In this document: positions 41,921-50,309 of the stretch, in pieces
Layout: every line of letters starts with the position of its first letter
Numbering within the stretch: position 1 is the stretch's first letter
NCBI RefSeq assembly: GCF_000015045.1
Contig: NC_008609.1
Location: 3,076,001-3,140,000, forward strand
Reading direction: 5' to 3'
Source of the DNA: Pelobacter propionicus DSM 2379
Lineage (GTDB): Bacteria > Desulfobacterota > Desulfuromonadia > Geobacterales > Pseudopelobacteraceae
Length of the DNA stretch: 64,000 nucleotides
Made by a program: the position numbers and the translations under genes
Notes under the pieces: generated by a model
The model's database searches: none
The model's input: only the letters and a program-made list of their open reading frames with translations
What the model was told of the DNA's origin: nothing

Positions 41921-42010
41921 ATTGATAGACGACAATACTAAACCATTCGCGAGAATGGGACGGAAAGCCTACAGGGTCTCACCGAGACAGCCGGGTCGCC
42001 GAAATATCCA
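41921..42010 (+). promoter_or_regulatory. GEMM-I riboswitch, predicted cyclic AMP-GMP (GEMM-Ib) type
   Basis: The conserved GEMM core is present: ACAATACTAAACC before the first stem, ATTC-GCGA-GAAT as the first hairpin with a GNRA loop, GGGACGGAAAGCC in the joining region, GTCTC-ACC-GAGAC as the second hairpin, and CAGCCGGGTCGCCGA as the 3' part. Aligned back from AAACC, the base corresponding to G20 of the Vibrio Vc2 aptamer is A. Known GEMM-I work links A20 to 3',3'-cGAMP selectivity or mixed selectivity and G20 to cyclic di-GMP. It is followed directly by an overlapping terminator. Confidence 0.85.
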
Positions 42011-42037
42011 ACTCAGATATTCGGCCCCGGCTTTTTT
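41989..42037 (+). terminator. Ligand-controlled terminator overlapping the first aptamer
   Basis: AGCCGGG (41989-41995) and GCCGAAATATC (41998-42008) pair with GATATTCGGC (42016-42025) and CCCGGCT (42026-42032), followed by six T. The 5' arm is the 3' conserved part of the GEMM aptamer, so aptamer and terminator cannot form together. Ligand binding should therefore allow read-through, making this an ON switch. Confidence 0.85.
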
Positions 42038-42177
42038 ATTGCCTGCGACACAATGTCGCGGCTCTTATGACAACAGCATACAGGAGGGTATGATGACGGG
42101 AATATGCTCAATAGAATCAAGTACTAAGAATATATCGCGTGATTCGGGAGGTGGTGGGAGAGCAGAAAGCAATATCA

Positions 42178-42276
42178 GTTGTACGCCTGAAAAAGGCAAA
42201 CCATTCGAAAGGATGGGGCGCAAAACCACTGGTCTAAATCCCGGAAATTCGGGACATGACAGCAGGGCTGCCGGGC
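42178..42276 (+). promoter_or_regulatory. GEMM-I riboswitch, predicted cyclic di-GMP type
   Basis: A second GEMM-I core is seen: AAAAAGGCAAACC, hairpin ATTC-GAAA-GGAT with a GNRA loop, GGGGCGCAAAACC, a second hairpin TCCCGGAAATTCGGGA, and ACAGCAGGGCTGCCGGGC at the 3' end. Aligned from AAACC, the base at the Vc2 G20 position is G, the cyclic di-GMP version. It sits 140 bases after the terminator of the first aptamer and before the secreted protein gene at 42339. Both aptamers are therefore on one leader. Confidence 0.85.
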
Positions 42277-42287
42277 TTAAGCAGTAC

Positions 42288-42330
42288 CTCCTTGTGAGGT
42301 GCGGTTTGCTCAGGCACAGACAACAAGGAG
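42288..42330 (+). promoter_or_regulatory. Candidate Shine-Dalgarno sequestering switch after the second aptamer
   Basis: CTCCTTGT at 42288-42295 is the exact complement of ACAAGGAG at 42323-42330, which is the ribosome site of the gene starting at 42339. The same segment can instead form the small hairpin ACCTC/GAGGT (42286-42300), which would free the ribosome site. No intrinsic terminator is seen here, so the second aptamer probably acts on translation. Confidence 0.6.
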
Positions 42331-42338
42331 AAATCTGC

Positions 42339-43391
42339 ATGAAATCAATTGGTTCAGTAGTTGCGGTGCGAAGGGCAGTAGGCACATCGAAATCAGGCTT
42401 CTTGCGGGCCACAGGACTATTGCGTGTTGGGGTTTTTGCATTTGTAGCAGCATGTACGCTTGTTTATCCGCTGAAGGCCCATGCGGCCCAGACAACCCTC
42501 GGATGGGCAGCCACTACGAGTTCAAATGTTTCCGGGTACAAGTTGTACTACGGCAACACCTCAGGTACGTACTCACAATCTGTGGATGTGGGAAACACGA
42601 CAAGTTATACTATGAGTAACCTGACTGCTGGAAAAACTTATTATTTTGCTGCTGTCGCCTATGATGTGTCTGGAAATCAAAGCGATTACTCCAACGAGGT
42701 GAGCAAAAGCATACCGCTGGTTCAATATACTGTAACCGCCAGTGCGGGAACTGGGGGCTCAATTTCCCCCTCCGGTTCGACTACCCTCAATTCCGGAGCA
42801 AGTAAGACGTATACCATTGTCCCTGCTACAGGTTACAAGATAGCTGATGTGAAAGTCGACGGTACATCAGTCGGTGCGGTCAGTACCTACACATTTGGCA
42901 ACGTAACCGCGAGCCATACCATTTCCGCCACCTTCTCGGCACAGGTAACTACCATAACCCCTCACTGGAACGATGCGACAACCAAGAATACGACCATGCT
43001 CACCGCTAGTCCTAAATACATGGTATGGAGCCCTGTTGTGGCCGATGCAACGGCAAAGGTGACGAGCTTGAGGGTGAATATAGGTCTTTACGGCCAAGCA
43101 ACTCAGGTCAGGCTGGCACTTTATGACAAAAGCGGTAAAAAAATGACCGAGGGGACCGGTACTGTTTCAGCGGCAGGATATAAATCCATAACCGTTCCAT
43201 TAGTGAGTGTTACCAAGGGCAATACCTATTTCATAGCAATACAGGCAGCTTCCAGCATGCTCAAAAAATTCAACTGCGGTGCTTCCACAGGAGGATATGC
43301 GGCTAAGAATACATACTCAAATGGGTTTCCAAGCAGTCTGCCCAAAGGGTGGAGTGATTATTTGGTCACTTCTGGAATGTTTGTACAGTAA
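42339..43391 (+). CDS. Secreted protein with fibronectin type III and bacterial repeat domains
   Basis: The 350-aa product starts at ATG 42339 behind AAGGAG. It has a long signal peptide (basic N-region, then LLRVGVFAFVAACTLVYPLKAHA). Residues about 50-130 form a fibronectin type III domain (LGWAATTSSNVSGYKLYYGN...YFAAVAYDVSGNQSDYSNEV). About 135-205 is an InlB/Listeria-type bacterial repeat (YTVTASAGTGGSISPSG...ITPHW follows). The C-terminal 140 residues form a beta-sandwich (VTSLRVNIGLYGQATQVRLALYDKSGKKM) of unknown type. It is probably an adhesin or matrix protein controlled by the tandem riboswitches. Confidence 0.85.
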   Translation: MKSIGSVVAVRRAVGTSKSGFLRATGLLRVGVFAFVAACTLVYPLKAHAAQTTLGWAATTSSNVSGYKLYYGNTSGTYSQSVDVGNTTSYTMSNLTAGKTYYFAAVAYDVSGNQSDYSNEVSKSIPLVQYTVTASAGTGGSISPSGSTTLNSGASKTYTIVPATGYKIADVKVDGTSVGAVSTYTFGNVTASHTISATFSAQVTTITPHWNDATTKNTTMLTASPKYMVWSPVVADATAKVTSLRVNIGLYGQATQVRLALYDKSGKKMTEGTGTVSAAGYKSITVPLVSVTKGNTYFIAIQAASSMLKKFNCGASTGGYAAKNTYSNGFPSSLPKGWSDYLVTSGMFVQ

Positions 43392-43501
43392 GCAAAGCGG
43401 ATTGCCGATAGGTAGTCAGGAGATTGTGTTACATGCGGTTGGCGAGGTTCAGGCCTCTTGGCAGACGGAAAGCCCAAACAAGATTAACGAGGAGTATTGC
43501 T

Positions 43502-45124
43502 ATGAAAATCAATGACTTTATAAGGAAAACACGGACACTGTTTTTTACGCTGACTTTGGTGTGCGGTGTCATGTCATCCGGGTGGGCAGCAACCTACTAC
43601 GTGGATTCCGTAAGCGGAAACGACGCCAATACGGGCACAGAGGCTGCGCCCTGGAAATCGCTGACCAAAGTGAATTCGACTGCTTTTAAATCAGGCGACT
43701 ATATCTATTTCAAATGCGGGCAAACATGGAGTGCCGCCTTAATTCCAGTATCAGGTTCCAGCGCCGGTTATGTTACATATGGATCGTACGGAAGTGGCGC
43801 CAAACCGGTAATAAGAAACTTTAATGCAACTGGCAAGATGTACGTTAAGCTTCAAGGTGTAAAATTAAGTTCCACCACAGCAGATTACCCTCTGTATATC
43901 AATAAATCCTCGTATATATGGGTTGAAAACTGTGAAATATATGCCGAAAGCGGATCGACTGCCTATGCTGCGGCAAGAATCTACATGGACTCACACCACA
44001 ACAAGATAGTTAACTGCGTTATTGAACATAGAAATTTTAATAGGCAAAATGATGCTCTCAATCTGAAATATAACGCAAACTATAATTTGATCGAAGGCAA
44101 CAAGATCGGGACAGCAACACACTATGCACTTACTTTAGAAGGTTCAAGTTCCGCCTATCCTGGTTATGTATGTAGTTACAATGTTATAAGAAAAAATACC
44201 ATAAATAACCCTGAAGGTGCAGTAGTTGAACTTCAGTCAAACGCAAATCGCAATGTGTTTGAGAACAATACGGTAACAGGCGGAAAGAATACTTCTTTTT
44301 GCGCCAACCAGCCCCGTTCCTTTAAAAGCGTGTCACAATATAACATTATTAGGGGGAATGTAATTTACGATAATCTTGAATCGGCTGGATCCGGCATCTC
44401 TTCACAGGCTTATCAGTATAATACCGATCCGGCCAACAATGTCGTGGGTAACCGCATTTATAACAATATTATTAAAGGCATATACGCTAGTCCTATTATT
44501 CTCGACAATTATGAGCCCACTGTGTGCAAGGTGGCGGATAACGTGTTCAAAAACAACATCATCAGTGGCAATGGTGTGTCGAATGGTCTTCAACTTATTG
44601 TGACAGCGAACAGCAATATTACGGATAATTATTTTCAAAATAACCTTTTTTACAAATACGGCACAACCAATGTCTTGAAAGTAAAGGGTGTGTCGTATAG
44701 CGTCGCTTCAATACAATCAACCTCCAGCACTTACTTTTCAGGTAATATCCAGAAAGAACCAGCTATAGGTACCGACAACAACCTGCTTTCCGGTTCACCG
44801 TGCATCGATGCAGGCGGATTTTTGACAACAGTGACAAGTTCAAGTGGTTCTGGCAACATAATATCTCTTGCAGATGTCAAATATTTCAGCGATGGATTTG
44901 GTGTTGCTGAAGGTGACAAAATAATGGTTGGTAATGCTTTGGCAACCATTACATCTATAGACTATTCAACAAACAAGGTTGTTCTTAAGGACCCAATTTC
45001 ATGGCAGCAGGGAGCATCGGTGAGCCTTCCTTTTGCTGGTACCAAGCCTGATATTGGAGCTTTTGAAGTCGCTGATCTGTCTTCTACTATTTTGCCTCCA
45101 GTAAACTTAAAAGTTGTTGAATAG
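43502..45124 (+). CDS. Secreted right-handed beta-helix protein
   Basis: The product is 540 aa from ATG 43502 (CGAGGAG upstream). It has a signal peptide (LFFTLTLVCGVMSSGWA) followed by TYYVDSVSGNDANTGTEAAPWKSL, the usual opening of secreted pectate-lyase-like beta-helix proteins. About 250 residues of short repeats rich in N, V and I (NVIRKNTINNPEGAVVEL, NVFENNTVTGG, NIIRGNVIYDN) follow. It ends with SPCIDAGG and GTKPDIGAFEV, typical of the family. It is probably a polysaccharide lyase or adhesin at the cell surface. It follows the riboswitch-controlled gene by 110 bases and likely shares its transcript. Confidence 0.85.
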   Translation: MKINDFIRKTRTLFFTLTLVCGVMSSGWAATYYVDSVSGNDANTGTEAAPWKSLTKVNSTAFKSGDYIYFKCGQTWSAALIPVSGSSAGYVTYGSYGSGAKPVIRNFNATGKMYVKLQGVKLSSTTADYPLYINKSSYIWVENCEIYAESGSTAYAAARIYMDSHHNKIVNCVIEHRNFNRQNDALNLKYNANYNLIEGNKIGTATHYALTLEGSSSAYPGYVCSYNVIRKNTINNPEGAVVELQSNANRNVFENNTVTGGKNTSFCANQPRSFKSVSQYNIIRGNVIYDNLESAGSGISSQAYQYNTDPANNVVGNRIYNNIIKGIYASPIILDNYEPTVCKVADNVFKNNIISGNGVSNGLQLIVTANSNITDNYFQNNLFYKYGTTNVLKVKGVSYSVASIQSTSSTYFSGNIQKEPAIGTDNNLLSGSPCIDAGGFLTTVTSSSGSGNIISLADVKYFSDGFGVAEGDKIMVGNALATITSIDYSTNKVVLKDPISWQQGASVSLPFAGTKPDIGAFEVADLSSTILPPVNLKVVE

Positions 45125-45423: not shown

Positions 45424-45568
45424 TGAGAGTAAACACGATAATCGAGGGAGGTTCAGACTTGCTAATTGAGGGATCATTGCAGGCCCTGACCTGACGATCA
45501 TGGATGCTGGATGGGCAGCGGTTGAGCCCTGCATAACAGTAGGTTCATCCGCCGCCCCCAGGTTTTTC

Positions 45569-45817
45569 CTACCTCAGTTGCCGCATGAGCTCCCTTGCCT
45601 TCTTCCGGCTGTAACCGATGTCCTCCCTCGATACGTCATACAGATAGACCGGATAGTTAAACCCTGTCTTGATGAGCAGTCCTCCGTTCCAGTCAGTGAT
45701 CATGGTGATGCTTCTAATATTCCGACGGTAGCGGAACCATGTCGTATTTTCCTCCGTGATCTCCACATCGAGCGTTTCCAGCCGTCTTTTCTGGGGGTTA
45801 TACACAGTGCATTCCAT
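45569..45817 (-). CDS. Small transposon protein (82 aa)
   Basis: ATG 45817 has GGGAGG eight bases upstream and lies 19 bases after the ATPase stop. The product (MECTVYNPQKRRLETLDVEI...) has a beta-rich beginning and a basic helical end (YSRKKARELMRQLR) that could bind DNA. I do not recognise the family. Its place as the last gene of the transposon suggests an accessory role. Confidence 0.65.
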   Translation of the reverse strand: MECTVYNPQKRRLETLDVEITEENTTWFRYRRNIRSITMITDWNGGLLIKTGFNYPVYLYDVSREDIGYSRKKARELMRQLR

Positions 45818-45836
45818 ATCCACCTCCCGGGCTATT

Positions 45837-46667
45837 TCAGGAACGGCGCGGCTGACGCACGGGAGGAGTGAATAGGTCGAAGTAGAGGGGTTCGTCGATG
45901 CGCGGGAGGTTGCGCTCGGCGGCGGCGGTGAGCAGTTCCGCCGCCATGTGTGTGAGCACCCGCAGGTTTCCGTGTGCATGGGTTGCCAGGGTTTGGATCA
46001 GCTCCGGTGCGATCAACTGGGGCGCCCCGGCTTTCTGCAGGACGTAGTCCAGGTAGGAAGCCAGCTCCTGCGGGGTGAGCGCGGAGAGTTCCAGGCGGGC
46101 GCGGATGCGACTGCCCAAGGGTAGGAGTTCCGGGGTGCGGAAGCGCTGGGGGAGCCGGGCGTCGCCGCACAGCACGGTGAAGAGCAGGCTCTGGGAGTCG
46201 AAGCTCGCGCTTTGCAGGAGCCTCAGTTCGGTCAGGCACTCGGAGCTGACCTCCTGAGCCTCATCGACCAGGAGCAGCGGGCGCAAGAGAGTCGCTGCAC
46301 AGTGTGCGCGCCAGCGCTCACGCAGCGCCTTGAATCCGCCATACCGGTTGGCGGGATTGAGCTGAACGCCGAATAGCTCTCCAAGCTCGCGATAGAAATC
46401 GGCGACCTTGCTTTGGGGGCGCTCCATCACCCCCACTACGATGTCGGGCAGTTGTCCCAGGCGGGCGCCAAGCCACTGCAGGGTCTTCGATTTGCCGTAG
46501 CCCGGCTCACCGGTGATCAGGGAGAACCCGCCCTGGGAGACCAGGGACTCCAGGCGCCGGGCAAAGAGTTCGGCGCCCGGCAGCGGCCAGAGCGCCTCCA
46601 CGGGAAGCGCCGGCACGAACGGGTTGTACTTGAGCCCGTAGAGGGCCAGGAGAGTCTTATCGTTCAT
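45837..46667 (-). CDS. AAA ATPase of the ExeA/TniB/TnsC type
   Basis: The 276-aa product begins LLALYGLKYNPFVPALPVEALW, the usual ExeA-like opening. It has Walker A GEPGYGKSKT, Walker B LLLVDEAQEV and a sensor region SLLFTVLCGD. Such ATPases choose or prepare the target for DDE transposases. The gene overlaps the transposase end by 11 bases. Confidence 0.88.
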   Translation of the reverse strand: MNDKTLLALYGLKYNPFVPALPVEALWPLPGAELFARRLESLVSQGGFSLITGEPGYGKSKTLQWLGARLGQLPDIVVGVMERPQSKVADFYRELGELFGVQLNPANRYGGFKALRERWRAHCAATLLRPLLLVDEAQEVSSECLTELRLLQSASFDSQSLLFTVLCGDARLPQRFRTPELLPLGSRIRARLELSALTPQELASYLDYVLQKAGAPQLIAPELIQTLATHAHGNLRVLTHMAAELLTAAAERNLPRIDEPLYFDLFTPPVRQPRRS

Positions 46668-48111
46668 CGGGACCCTCCTTCACGGCAAGATAGGCCGGTG
46701 GAAGCCCGGTGGCGGCGTAATCCGCCAGCCACTTGCGAAGCAGTGCGGGCATCTCCTCGGGTGAGGCGTTCGCCTGGGCCGACTGCGCCGCAACCGGTTC
46801 CAGAGTGCGGCGCTGACCGGAGGCGTTTTTCTCCTTGTCCTGGGGGAGCAGCCGGGCCAAGGGATTGCAGCTGTCGGGATCCACTAGAACCATCCGGCTT
46901 ACGTCCCAACCGGCATGGCGTAACGTCAGGCGGGGGAGATGCCTGAACCGCGACGGGACCTCGAAGCGCACCCCCTCGACCGTCACGGTTGCATCGCTTT
47001 TGCGCTGGGTGCGCGTAACCTGGCGGGTGAAGGCGAGATTCAAGGAGTCCATGTCGGGAGCCGAGCGGGAGACCTCCGGTCCGGCGAGCAGGCGCTCGAT
47101 CGGAGCGCAGCCGATCTCGCTGTGGGTACGGCGGTGATAGTCCTGTTCGACCCACGCCTGGGTGGTGCGGTTGAGGAACTCCAGCCGCAAGGGGCTCACC
47201 CCGCGCAAAAGCTCCATGAGACGTCCCTCAAGCTGCGCCCAGAACACCTCCTGTTTCCCGTTCATATAGGGCGAGTAAGGAAGGGTTGTGTCGTGGCTCA
47301 CCCCGAGTCGGGCCAGCCCCTCCCGGGTTTCCTCCGCCAGCATCGCGCTTCCATTATCGGTCATCAGAGCCCTGGGAAGCCCACGTTTCAGCATCGCCTG
47401 CGTGAGAGCATGCGCGAGGTTCTGGGCGCTTTCCGCCAGATACCACTGCAGATGGCAGCAGAGCCTGCTCCGGTCGTCCAGAACCGCGCACACCAGGGGC
47501 GTCTGCCAGCCCCCCTCCTCGTCCAGCACCTTGAGGCTTCCCTGGTGGAAGTCGAGGTGCCACAGGGCGTGCACGTGGCTCGCCTCATAGCCGCGAATCT
47601 CACGGCTTTCGCGGCGCCGGACGGCGCGGCGTTGTCCTTCGGTCGGGTTCGCGGGCTCGCGCCTTTTCTGCCACCCCTTCTCCCGCATTCGGCGAAGCAC
47701 GCTCTGGTAGCTCGGCAAGGCTCCCATCTGGGGCTTTTGGGCCACTTCGGCGGCAAGGTTGTCGTAGTGCAGTTGCACCGTCCAGCGAGGATACCTGGCA
47801 TACTGCACTTCCAGGGCGCTCAAGAGCGCCTCGGACAGCGCAATCTGACACCCGGCGTCCGAACGCGCCTTGCGACTCAGCGCAGCGATCGGGTCCGCGG
47901 CGTCCTTCGCCTGGTAGTACCAGCGTTCGAGCGTGGAAAAACCAAGTCGTATAGACTTCTCCGGGAGCAGGGGATGCCGGTACACCCTCTCGCTCAATTC
48001 CCGGATCTTTCCCTGCAACTCCCCGCTCGCGGCAGGGCTCGCCAATAGCGGTCCGATCACCTGCAGCCGAAACCTGGCCCAGCGCTGCTTCGGGACTACA
48101 TTCTTCTTCAT
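46657..48111 (-). CDS. DDE transposase (integrase core, TnsB/TniA-like)
   Basis: The 484-aa product starts at ATG 48111. An N-terminal helical DNA-binding part (about 1-170) precedes an rve catalytic core with Asp in HALWHLDFHQG, Asp in RALMTDNGSAM and Glu in YMNGKQEVFWAQLE, the DDE set. A C-terminal beta-barrel (VTVEGVRFEVPSRFRHLP) follows, as in Mu/TnsB enzymes. An IS21 element lies immediately upstream of the ATG. Without it the start would sit behind AAGGAG and directly after the stop of the preceding ORF. With the IS in place the gene has lost its ribosome site and promoter. Confidence 0.88.
   Translation of the reverse strand: MKKNVVPKQRWARFRLQVIGPLLASPAASGELQGKIRELSERVYRHPLLPEKSIRLGFSTLERWYYQAKDAADPIAALSRKARSDAGCQIALSEALLSALEVQYARYPRWTVQLHYDNLAAEVAQKPQMGALPSYQSVLRRMREKGWQKRREPANPTEGQRRAVRRRESREIRGYEASHVHALWHLDFHQGSLKVLDEEGGWQTPLVCAVLDDRSRLCCHLQWYLAESAQNLAHALTQAMLKRGLPRALMTDNGSAMLAEETREGLARLGVSHDTTLPYSPYMNGKQEVFWAQLEGRLMELLRGVSPLRLEFLNRTTQAWVEQDYHRRTHSEIGCAPIERLLAGPEVSRSAPDMDSLNLAFTRQVTRTQRKSDATVTVEGVRFEVPSRFRHLPRLTLRHAGWDVSRMVLVDPDSCNPLARLLPQDKEKNASGQRRTLEPVAAQSAQANASPEEMPALLRKWLADYAATGLPPAYLAVKEGPDER
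48107..48111. repeat. IS21 target-site duplication TTCAT, left copy
   Basis: TTCAT at 48107-48111 is repeated at 50305-50309, directly flanking the element ends. Confidence 0.85.
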
Positions 48112-48206
48112 TGTCAATGGTAGTGCAATAATGTCCCAAAAGCGGTAACGAAAAGTGTACCGCCCTGGAAGCCGTGGTATCCCTTCTGGAGAAAGGAGGG
48201 GTGCCC

Positions 48207-50230
<2,024 letters not shown>

Positions 50231-50309
50231 GGAACTTCTCTAACCAGCAGGGTGGTACACTTTTCAATTCCCGAAACTGGTACACTTTTGCGTCCCCATT
50301 GACATTCAT

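Follow-up and report, generated by a model that had tools for sequence, protein, structure and literature searches.

A conserved leader in Pelobacter propionicus with two GEMM-I aptamers, predicted to sense 3',3'-cGAMP and cyclic di-GMP

It is unclear how Geobacter relatives keep their cGAMP and c-di-GMP signals apart, because the two nucleotides vary inversely in level and are both read by one aptamer fold (PMC12285248, PMC6456294). With a leader that is conserved and predicted to read both, this separation can be tested on a single RNA. A candidate is found in Pelobacter propionicus DSM 2379, where an initial annotation placed two GEMM-I aptamers ahead of one secreted-protein operon. The window analysed here is the whole 64,000-nt stretch of contig NC_008609.1 from 3076001 to 3140000 in the 4,241,119-base genome, and all coordinates below refer to it unless another contig or locus is named.

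Two GEMM-I aptamers with different bases at position 20

A cmscan search against all of Rfam 15 found exactly two RF01051 matches in the window and no other Rfam family. Aptamer 1 (41927-42003) scored 43.0 bits (E 4.4e-05) and aptamer 2 (42185-42275) scored 80.4 bits (E 3.3e-14), both above the gathering score of 35 bits. Together with the Pfam matches of both downstream genes (Table 1), this confirms the proposed arrangement, and "secreted-protein operon" is a fair label for the fn3 and beta-helix genes. The span first given for the leader and gene start (41921-42339) is correct within 1 to 2 bases; the fn3 start codon is ATG (42339-42341).

Table 1. Features of the tandem GEMM-I leader and the genes that follow it (window coordinates).
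Feature	Position	Strand	Basis
Aptamer 1, GEMM-Ib (cGAMP-type)	41922..42008	+	RF01051 match; A20-type model R2
P1 of aptamer 1, GAUA/UAUC	41924-41927 with 42005-42008	+	Part of aptamer 1
A20-C21-U22 of aptamer 1	41937..41939	+	cmscan alignment; A20 = 41937, ligand-contacting base
Intrinsic terminator, stem GCCGGGUCGCCGAAAUAUC / GAUAUUCGGCCCCGGC then U6	41990..42037	+	-22.4 kcal/mol hairpin; TTTTTT
Aptamer 2, G20 (c-di-GMP-type)	42185..42276	+	RF01051 80.4 bits; R1 106.6 bits
P1 of aptamer 2, GCCU/GGGC	42185-42188 with 42273-42276	+	Part of aptamer 2
G20-G21-C22 of aptamer 2	42195..42197	+	cmscan alignment; G20 = 42195, C92 = 42271
Hairpin H1 (anti-anti-Shine-Dalgarno)	42269..42316	+	-23.2 kcal/mol; contains P1 3' strand, encloses anti-SD
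Anti-Shine-Dalgarno (anti-SD) CUCCUUGU	42288..42295	+	Complementary to 42323-42330; covariation in homologs
Shine-Dalgarno (SD) region ACAAGGAG	42323..42330	+	Sequence; 8 nt spacing from ATG 42339
Secreted protein of 350 aa; fn3 domain after an N terminus resembling a signal peptide	42339..43391	+	Pfam PF00041, E 1.7e-06; ORF
Second gene, secreted right-handed beta-helix protein	43499..45124	+	Pfam PF13229, E 1.7e-12

The structure-based alignment places A in the first aptamer and G in the second at the Vc2 G20 equivalent, as had been read from a shared motif. In aptamer 1, C21 is paired with G46 (41963), A47 is at 41964 and C92 at 41999, so that with A20 all GEMM-Ib sequence criteria are met. 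The swap from G21-C46 to C21-G46 is a compensated change. The solved cGAMP riboswitch carries the equivalent bases A14, C15-G40, A41 and C75 (PMC6274999). All of them are present in aptamer 1, which identifies the aligned position-20 base as the ligand-contacting one; the opposite outcome would have refuted the initial proposal. Aptamer 2 has G20, A47 and C92, the sequence criteria for c-di-GMP-I, together with C46, a GAAA tetraloop and a receptor-like internal loop. Covariance model R2, built on A20 aptamers, scored aptamer 1 at 113.5 bits and the non-A20 aptamers that it picked up at no more than 57 bits. Aptamer 1 belongs to a sharply conserved ACU/GGAAAGCC class. A20-C21-U22 is invariant in all 19 A20 aptamers aligned, as are G20 and G21 in the aptamers of the aptamer-2 type (13/13).

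It has been reported that the A20G change alone flips Gmet_0970 from cGAMP to c-di-GMP (PMC6456294) and that natural A and G aptamers differ in ligand as predicted (PMC9481103). Two points limit the ligand assignment: cGAMP switches are able to bind c-di-GMP as well, and position 20 contributes to selectivity, according to published work, without being an absolute filter (PMC9262584). The assignment of A20 to cGAMP and G20 to c-di-GMP, and the predicted joint control of the surface-protein gene by the two nucleotides, thus find support in the sequence, in published position-20 work (PMC6456294, PMC9481103) and in ten-genome conservation. There are no binding data; judged by sequence, the leader should quite probably sense cGAMP and cyclic di-GMP with two related RNA switches.

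Conservation of the mixed pair and the host background

The search set consisted of 141 genomes of the order. In a BLASTN search the leader was recovered near full length in G059 and G063 (73-74%) and for most of its length in G023 (72%). Covariance model R1, for the aptamer-2 type, found 13 copies scoring at least 81.8 bits; the next best match reached 61.9 bits, and matches of 62 bits and below were left out of this type. In ten of the 13 copies the same leader also contains an A20 aptamer, or two of them, at a distance of 72-177 nt upstream (G000, the host, with G020, G023, G024, G025, G026, G054, G059, G063 and G119; two A20 aptamers in G054, G059 and G063). The order is always the same, with A20 first and G20 adjoining the start codon. 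No A20 aptamer was found upstream of aptamer 2 in the fetched stretches of G001, G085 and the second G054 copy (L060, 500 nt upstream only). The genes after the conserved leaders begin like that of the window, with a signal peptide and a fibronectin-III-like domain; this was judged by eye, Pfam having been run on the window protein only. A scan of the genome contigs with the window protein returned no Geobacterales relatives and distant ones only, including one in Desulfoferrobacter (L097).

Different predicted ligand classes thus occur in one leader and are conserved in 10 genomes, as expected of a two-ligand tandem, with a single transcript and selective binding being inferred. With its recurrence in nine other genomes the arrangement has the appearance of a real element of RNA control with two inputs, binding data being absent. 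The finding, a prediction from sequence, is real and stronger than the window alone could show, because order, the two expression platforms and target gene are conserved together. In eight near-complete genomes (seven single-contig), our own count of tandem pairs gave about 13 A/A, 3 A/G, 2 G/G and 0 G/A.

Two relatives bear on how the pair arose. In Desulfoferrobacter suflitae (L097), outside the order, a related fn3 gene is preceded by one G20 aptamer (83.0 bits) and by no A20 aptamer. G064 (L107) has three A20 modules followed by a decayed aptamer 2 with C20, in which the SD-sequestering sequence is intact. Both fit the inference that the G20-fn3 unit is the older part and that cGAMP modules joined it on the upstream side. 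In the decayed copy (L107:1514-1605, G064:C90) the P1 5' strand is altered; here the c-di-GMP input seems to have been lost naturally.

A further candidate arrangement was rejected. In genus g21 (L053-L058) UAU/GGC-variant aptamers follow an A20 aptamer at a distance of about 700 nt; in L054, the one locus checked, an ORF of 144 aa that by eye is hemerythrin-like separates them, so these loci were not counted as one leader. A second kind of mixed tandem is found in G059 (L106:1045-1120 and 1201-1279, contig C63), where an A20 aptamer is followed by RF03167 (c-di-GMP-I-GGC variant) before another fn3-type gene.

The host genome has 16 RF01051 matches. A20-C21-U22 is present in five of its aptamers, which group tightly; two of these, L011/L013, make up an A20/A20 tandem, and the window pair is the only A20/G20 tandem. 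Aligned by hand, several G20 aptamers (L003, L006, L009, L010) have U for C at the Vc2 C92 equivalent, so there may be more variation in ligand preference. An RF03168 match (c-di-GMP-I-UAU variant; L016, contig positions 2448396-2448471) has U20 and U92 and may bind a ligand other than these two cyclic dinucleotides. The host also encodes a GacA-type Hypr GGDEF protein, a REC-GGDEF adjoining hisS with the diagnostic Ser at the Hypr position (GHLVGS...GGDEY). Its best solved-structure match is 6d9m, the Geobacter metallireducens GacA domain (2.1e-63). By sequence, a cGAMP synthase gene is present, its enzyme activity being inferred. About 25 other host GGDEF domains carry the canonical aspartate, so both messengers are plausible in the cell. 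A further GGDEF domain (L091, contig positions 513090-513560) has Thr at the Hypr position and is possibly another altered cyclase.

Predicted outputs of the two modules

The intrinsic terminator overlaps the 3' part of aptamer 1. In folding of the growing transcript, the aptamer fold gives way to the terminator once the RNA passes about position 42025. Aptamer 1 thereby also meets the structural criterion for GEMM-Ib, an intrinsic terminator that excludes the aptamer fold (ON-switch design). In the ten leaders a G+C-rich hairpin followed by a T run closes every A20 module and reuses the 3' strands of the aptamer (weak in G025). No such G+C-rich hairpin with a T tail follows the G20 modules in the ten leaders. 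Published GEMM-Ib switches with this terminator design are ON switches (PMC6456294), and cGAMP at aptamer 1 should switch transcription ON, its binding being inferred.

The G20 module carries a different platform. For RNAs that stop short of the SD, H1 was predicted in 12 of 12 homologs, with a mean z of -2.56 versus dinucleotide shuffles. For the SD/anti-SD helix and P1 in the 12 homologs, five pairs are changed on both sides versus 1.5 expected (0/500 shuffles as high), and 88% of cells are paired versus 34-48% when slid by 1-3 columns. For the sequestering helix alone, 86/96 cells are paired by our own count, with the register of G020 corrected by hand; the maximum in 5000 shuffles was 85. 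The Desulfoferrobacter copy contributes another compensated SD-helix pair (AGCACC/GGUGCU). The anti-SD/SD helix, backed by these compensatory changes, fits a predicted SD-sequestering platform whose response to ligand is inferred.

H1 shares strands with P1 and also with the SD helix, and P1 is compatible with the SD helix. At co-transcriptional lengths the window RNA folds into H1 and leaves the SD free when it ends at 42330; when it reaches 42341, P1 has formed and the SD is sequestered. In equilibrium folding the SD stayed mostly paired in most homologs whether P1 was imposed or prevented, with no clear ligand effect, and the sign of the output was judged from strand sharing and growing-transcript folding instead. 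By these models a ligand that holds P1 should favour sequestration, and we regard it as likely that c-di-GMP blocks translation through aptamer 2, the direction being inferred. With the SD mostly paired at equilibrium with or without P1, such an OFF effect would have to arise kinetically or from small differences in energy.

A two-input reading, its rivals and known systems

We read the leader (41922-42341) as a two-input RNA gate, cGAMP AND NOT c-di-GMP, acting on transcription and then on translation, with a probability of roughly 0.58. The parts computed here are both aptamers, the A20/G20 split, both platforms, their conservation and the cGAMP synthase gene. Transcription from a promoter upstream of 41922 would make aptamer 1. 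Bound 3',3'-cGAMP would hold its P1/P3 strands and block the overlapping terminator, and RNA polymerase would read on. Aptamer 2, on what is inferred to be the same RNA, would sense c-di-GMP; binding, likewise inferred, would hold its P1 and prevent H1, leaving the anti-SD free to pair with the SD, and translation of the fn3 surface protein would be blocked. The gate requires both the mixed-ligand reading, in which we have good confidence, and the OFF sign of the second step, an inference that is somewhat less secure. We see even chances for the wider claim of a conserved gate that distinguishes the two sister messengers on one leader. In it, sequence variants of a single aptamer fold would act one after the other, the first reading cGAMP to turn transcription ON and the second reading c-di-GMP to turn translation OFF, and surface protein would be made only at high cGAMP and low c-di-GMP. 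If true, it would be a natural device that uses one aptamer fold twice, differing at key ligand-contact positions, with two outputs.

The second step could have the opposite sign, c-di-GMP turning translation ON, which would make an AND gate of both nucleotides. An activating ligand would be useful where the SD is sequestered by default, as in the folded leaders of most homologs, and many GEMM-I switches are generally known to be ON switches. P1 and the sequestering helix are compatible, however, and it is the SD-freeing H1 that shares a strand with P1; a stabilised P1 favours sequestration, not release, and we consider the AND gate unlikely. Both aptamers could also answer one nucleotide in the cell, aptamer 1 being promiscuous or aptamer 2 binding cGAMP, so that the pair merely sharpens the dose response as in same-ligand tandems. 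The two fall in one Rfam family, position 20 is not a hard filter (PMC9262584), and same-ligand doublets are the commonest tandem type (PMC9481103 and the A/A pairs counted here). Against this stand the different outputs of the two modules and the fact that A20 and G20 are each invariant at their own place in ten leaders. In addition, the tested pgcA member of the ACU/GGAAAGCC class favours cGAMP about 1200-fold (PMC6456294). We therefore hold a single-nucleotide reading to be improbable.

Least probable in our estimate are two independent controls, in which a second promoter between the modules would give RNAs with aptamer 2 only and the two nucleotides would act on different RNAs. The spacer of about 180 nt is long enough for a promoter, and a weak promoter-like match (ATGACA-16-TATGAT, 42067-42094) could yield such transcripts, which would count against the gate. 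The match is within chance, however (three promoter-like matches versus 1.7 plus or minus 1.6 expected), and the spacer is poorly conserved and shrinks to 72-79 nt in G119 and G020. An AGGAGG-like site with ATGATG (42089-42094) also opens a reading frame (42085-42340) that crosses aptamer 2 in the same phase as the fn3 gene. This upstream ORF from ATG 42089/42092 was set aside: its SD is good, but the spacer is not conserved in relatives.

Compared with cGAMP-and-NOT-c-di-GMP control as proposed here, known systems share single parts. The GEMM-Ib cGAMP riboswitches Gmet_0970 and GSU1761 (pgcA) resemble aptamer 1 in A20, C21-G46, A47, C92, the terminator overlapping the 3' strand and the ON design; here a G20 aptamer with a translational platform comes after in the same leader. 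Vc2-type c-di-GMP-I riboswitches (RF01051) resemble aptamer 2 in G20, A47, C92, the GAAA tetraloop and the 80-bit match, whereas aptamer 2 has a cGAMP-type module ahead and an SD-sequestering platform conserved with the fn3 gene. G. sulfurreducens has 17 GEMM-I riboswitches, several in tandem, the tandem ones labelled GEMM-Ib (PMC6456294, PMC8835794). Same-ligand tandems (Geobacter A/A, e.g., the GSU2885 omcAHG leader, and the triple c-di-GMP-I of Bacillus thuringiensis) likewise have at least two GEMM-I aptamers serially on one leader, but those described respond to one ligand, whereas the two aptamers of this leader differ in output and in the ligand-contacting base. Two-ligand gates with Boolean logic on one leader are also known (AdoCbl/c-di-GMP-I and AdoCbl/c-AMP-GMP in Desulfobacca acetoxidans, guanine/PRPP, SAM-I/AdoCbl). 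Those combine different aptamer families; the predicted inputs here are sister cyclic dinucleotides, each with its own variant of a shared fold. In G. bemidjiensis the same kind of target gene, encoding fn3 surface proteins (Gbem_1796/1798/1799), has been noted to be under GEMM control; in the parts of that 2010 paper available to us, A20 aptamers are not split from G20 aptamers and no mixed pair is described (PMC2996986).

The initial annotation knew of no described mixed pair on one leader, and this still holds for the main tandem-riboswitch survey (PMC9481103) and the other literature examined; an earlier mention in tables of the two 2015 founding papers (Kellenberger 2015, Nelson 2015) is possible. 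The individual parts are already known; no description of a mixed pair with two outputs was found in this literature. The survey treats 347 c-di-GMP-I doublets as a same-ligand group, its two-ligand gate table has AdoCbl/c-di-GMP-I and AdoCbl/c-AMP-GMP without a cGAMP/c-di-GMP pair, and in its Desulfobacca case A and G aptamers lie in separate clusters (PMC9481103). The conserved leader suggests that surveys pooling GEMM-I doublets by family may hide a mixed-ligand class. Just 3' of the operon (45500-50250) lie transposase and ATPase-like genes, by eye Mu/Tn7-like and IS21-like pairs.
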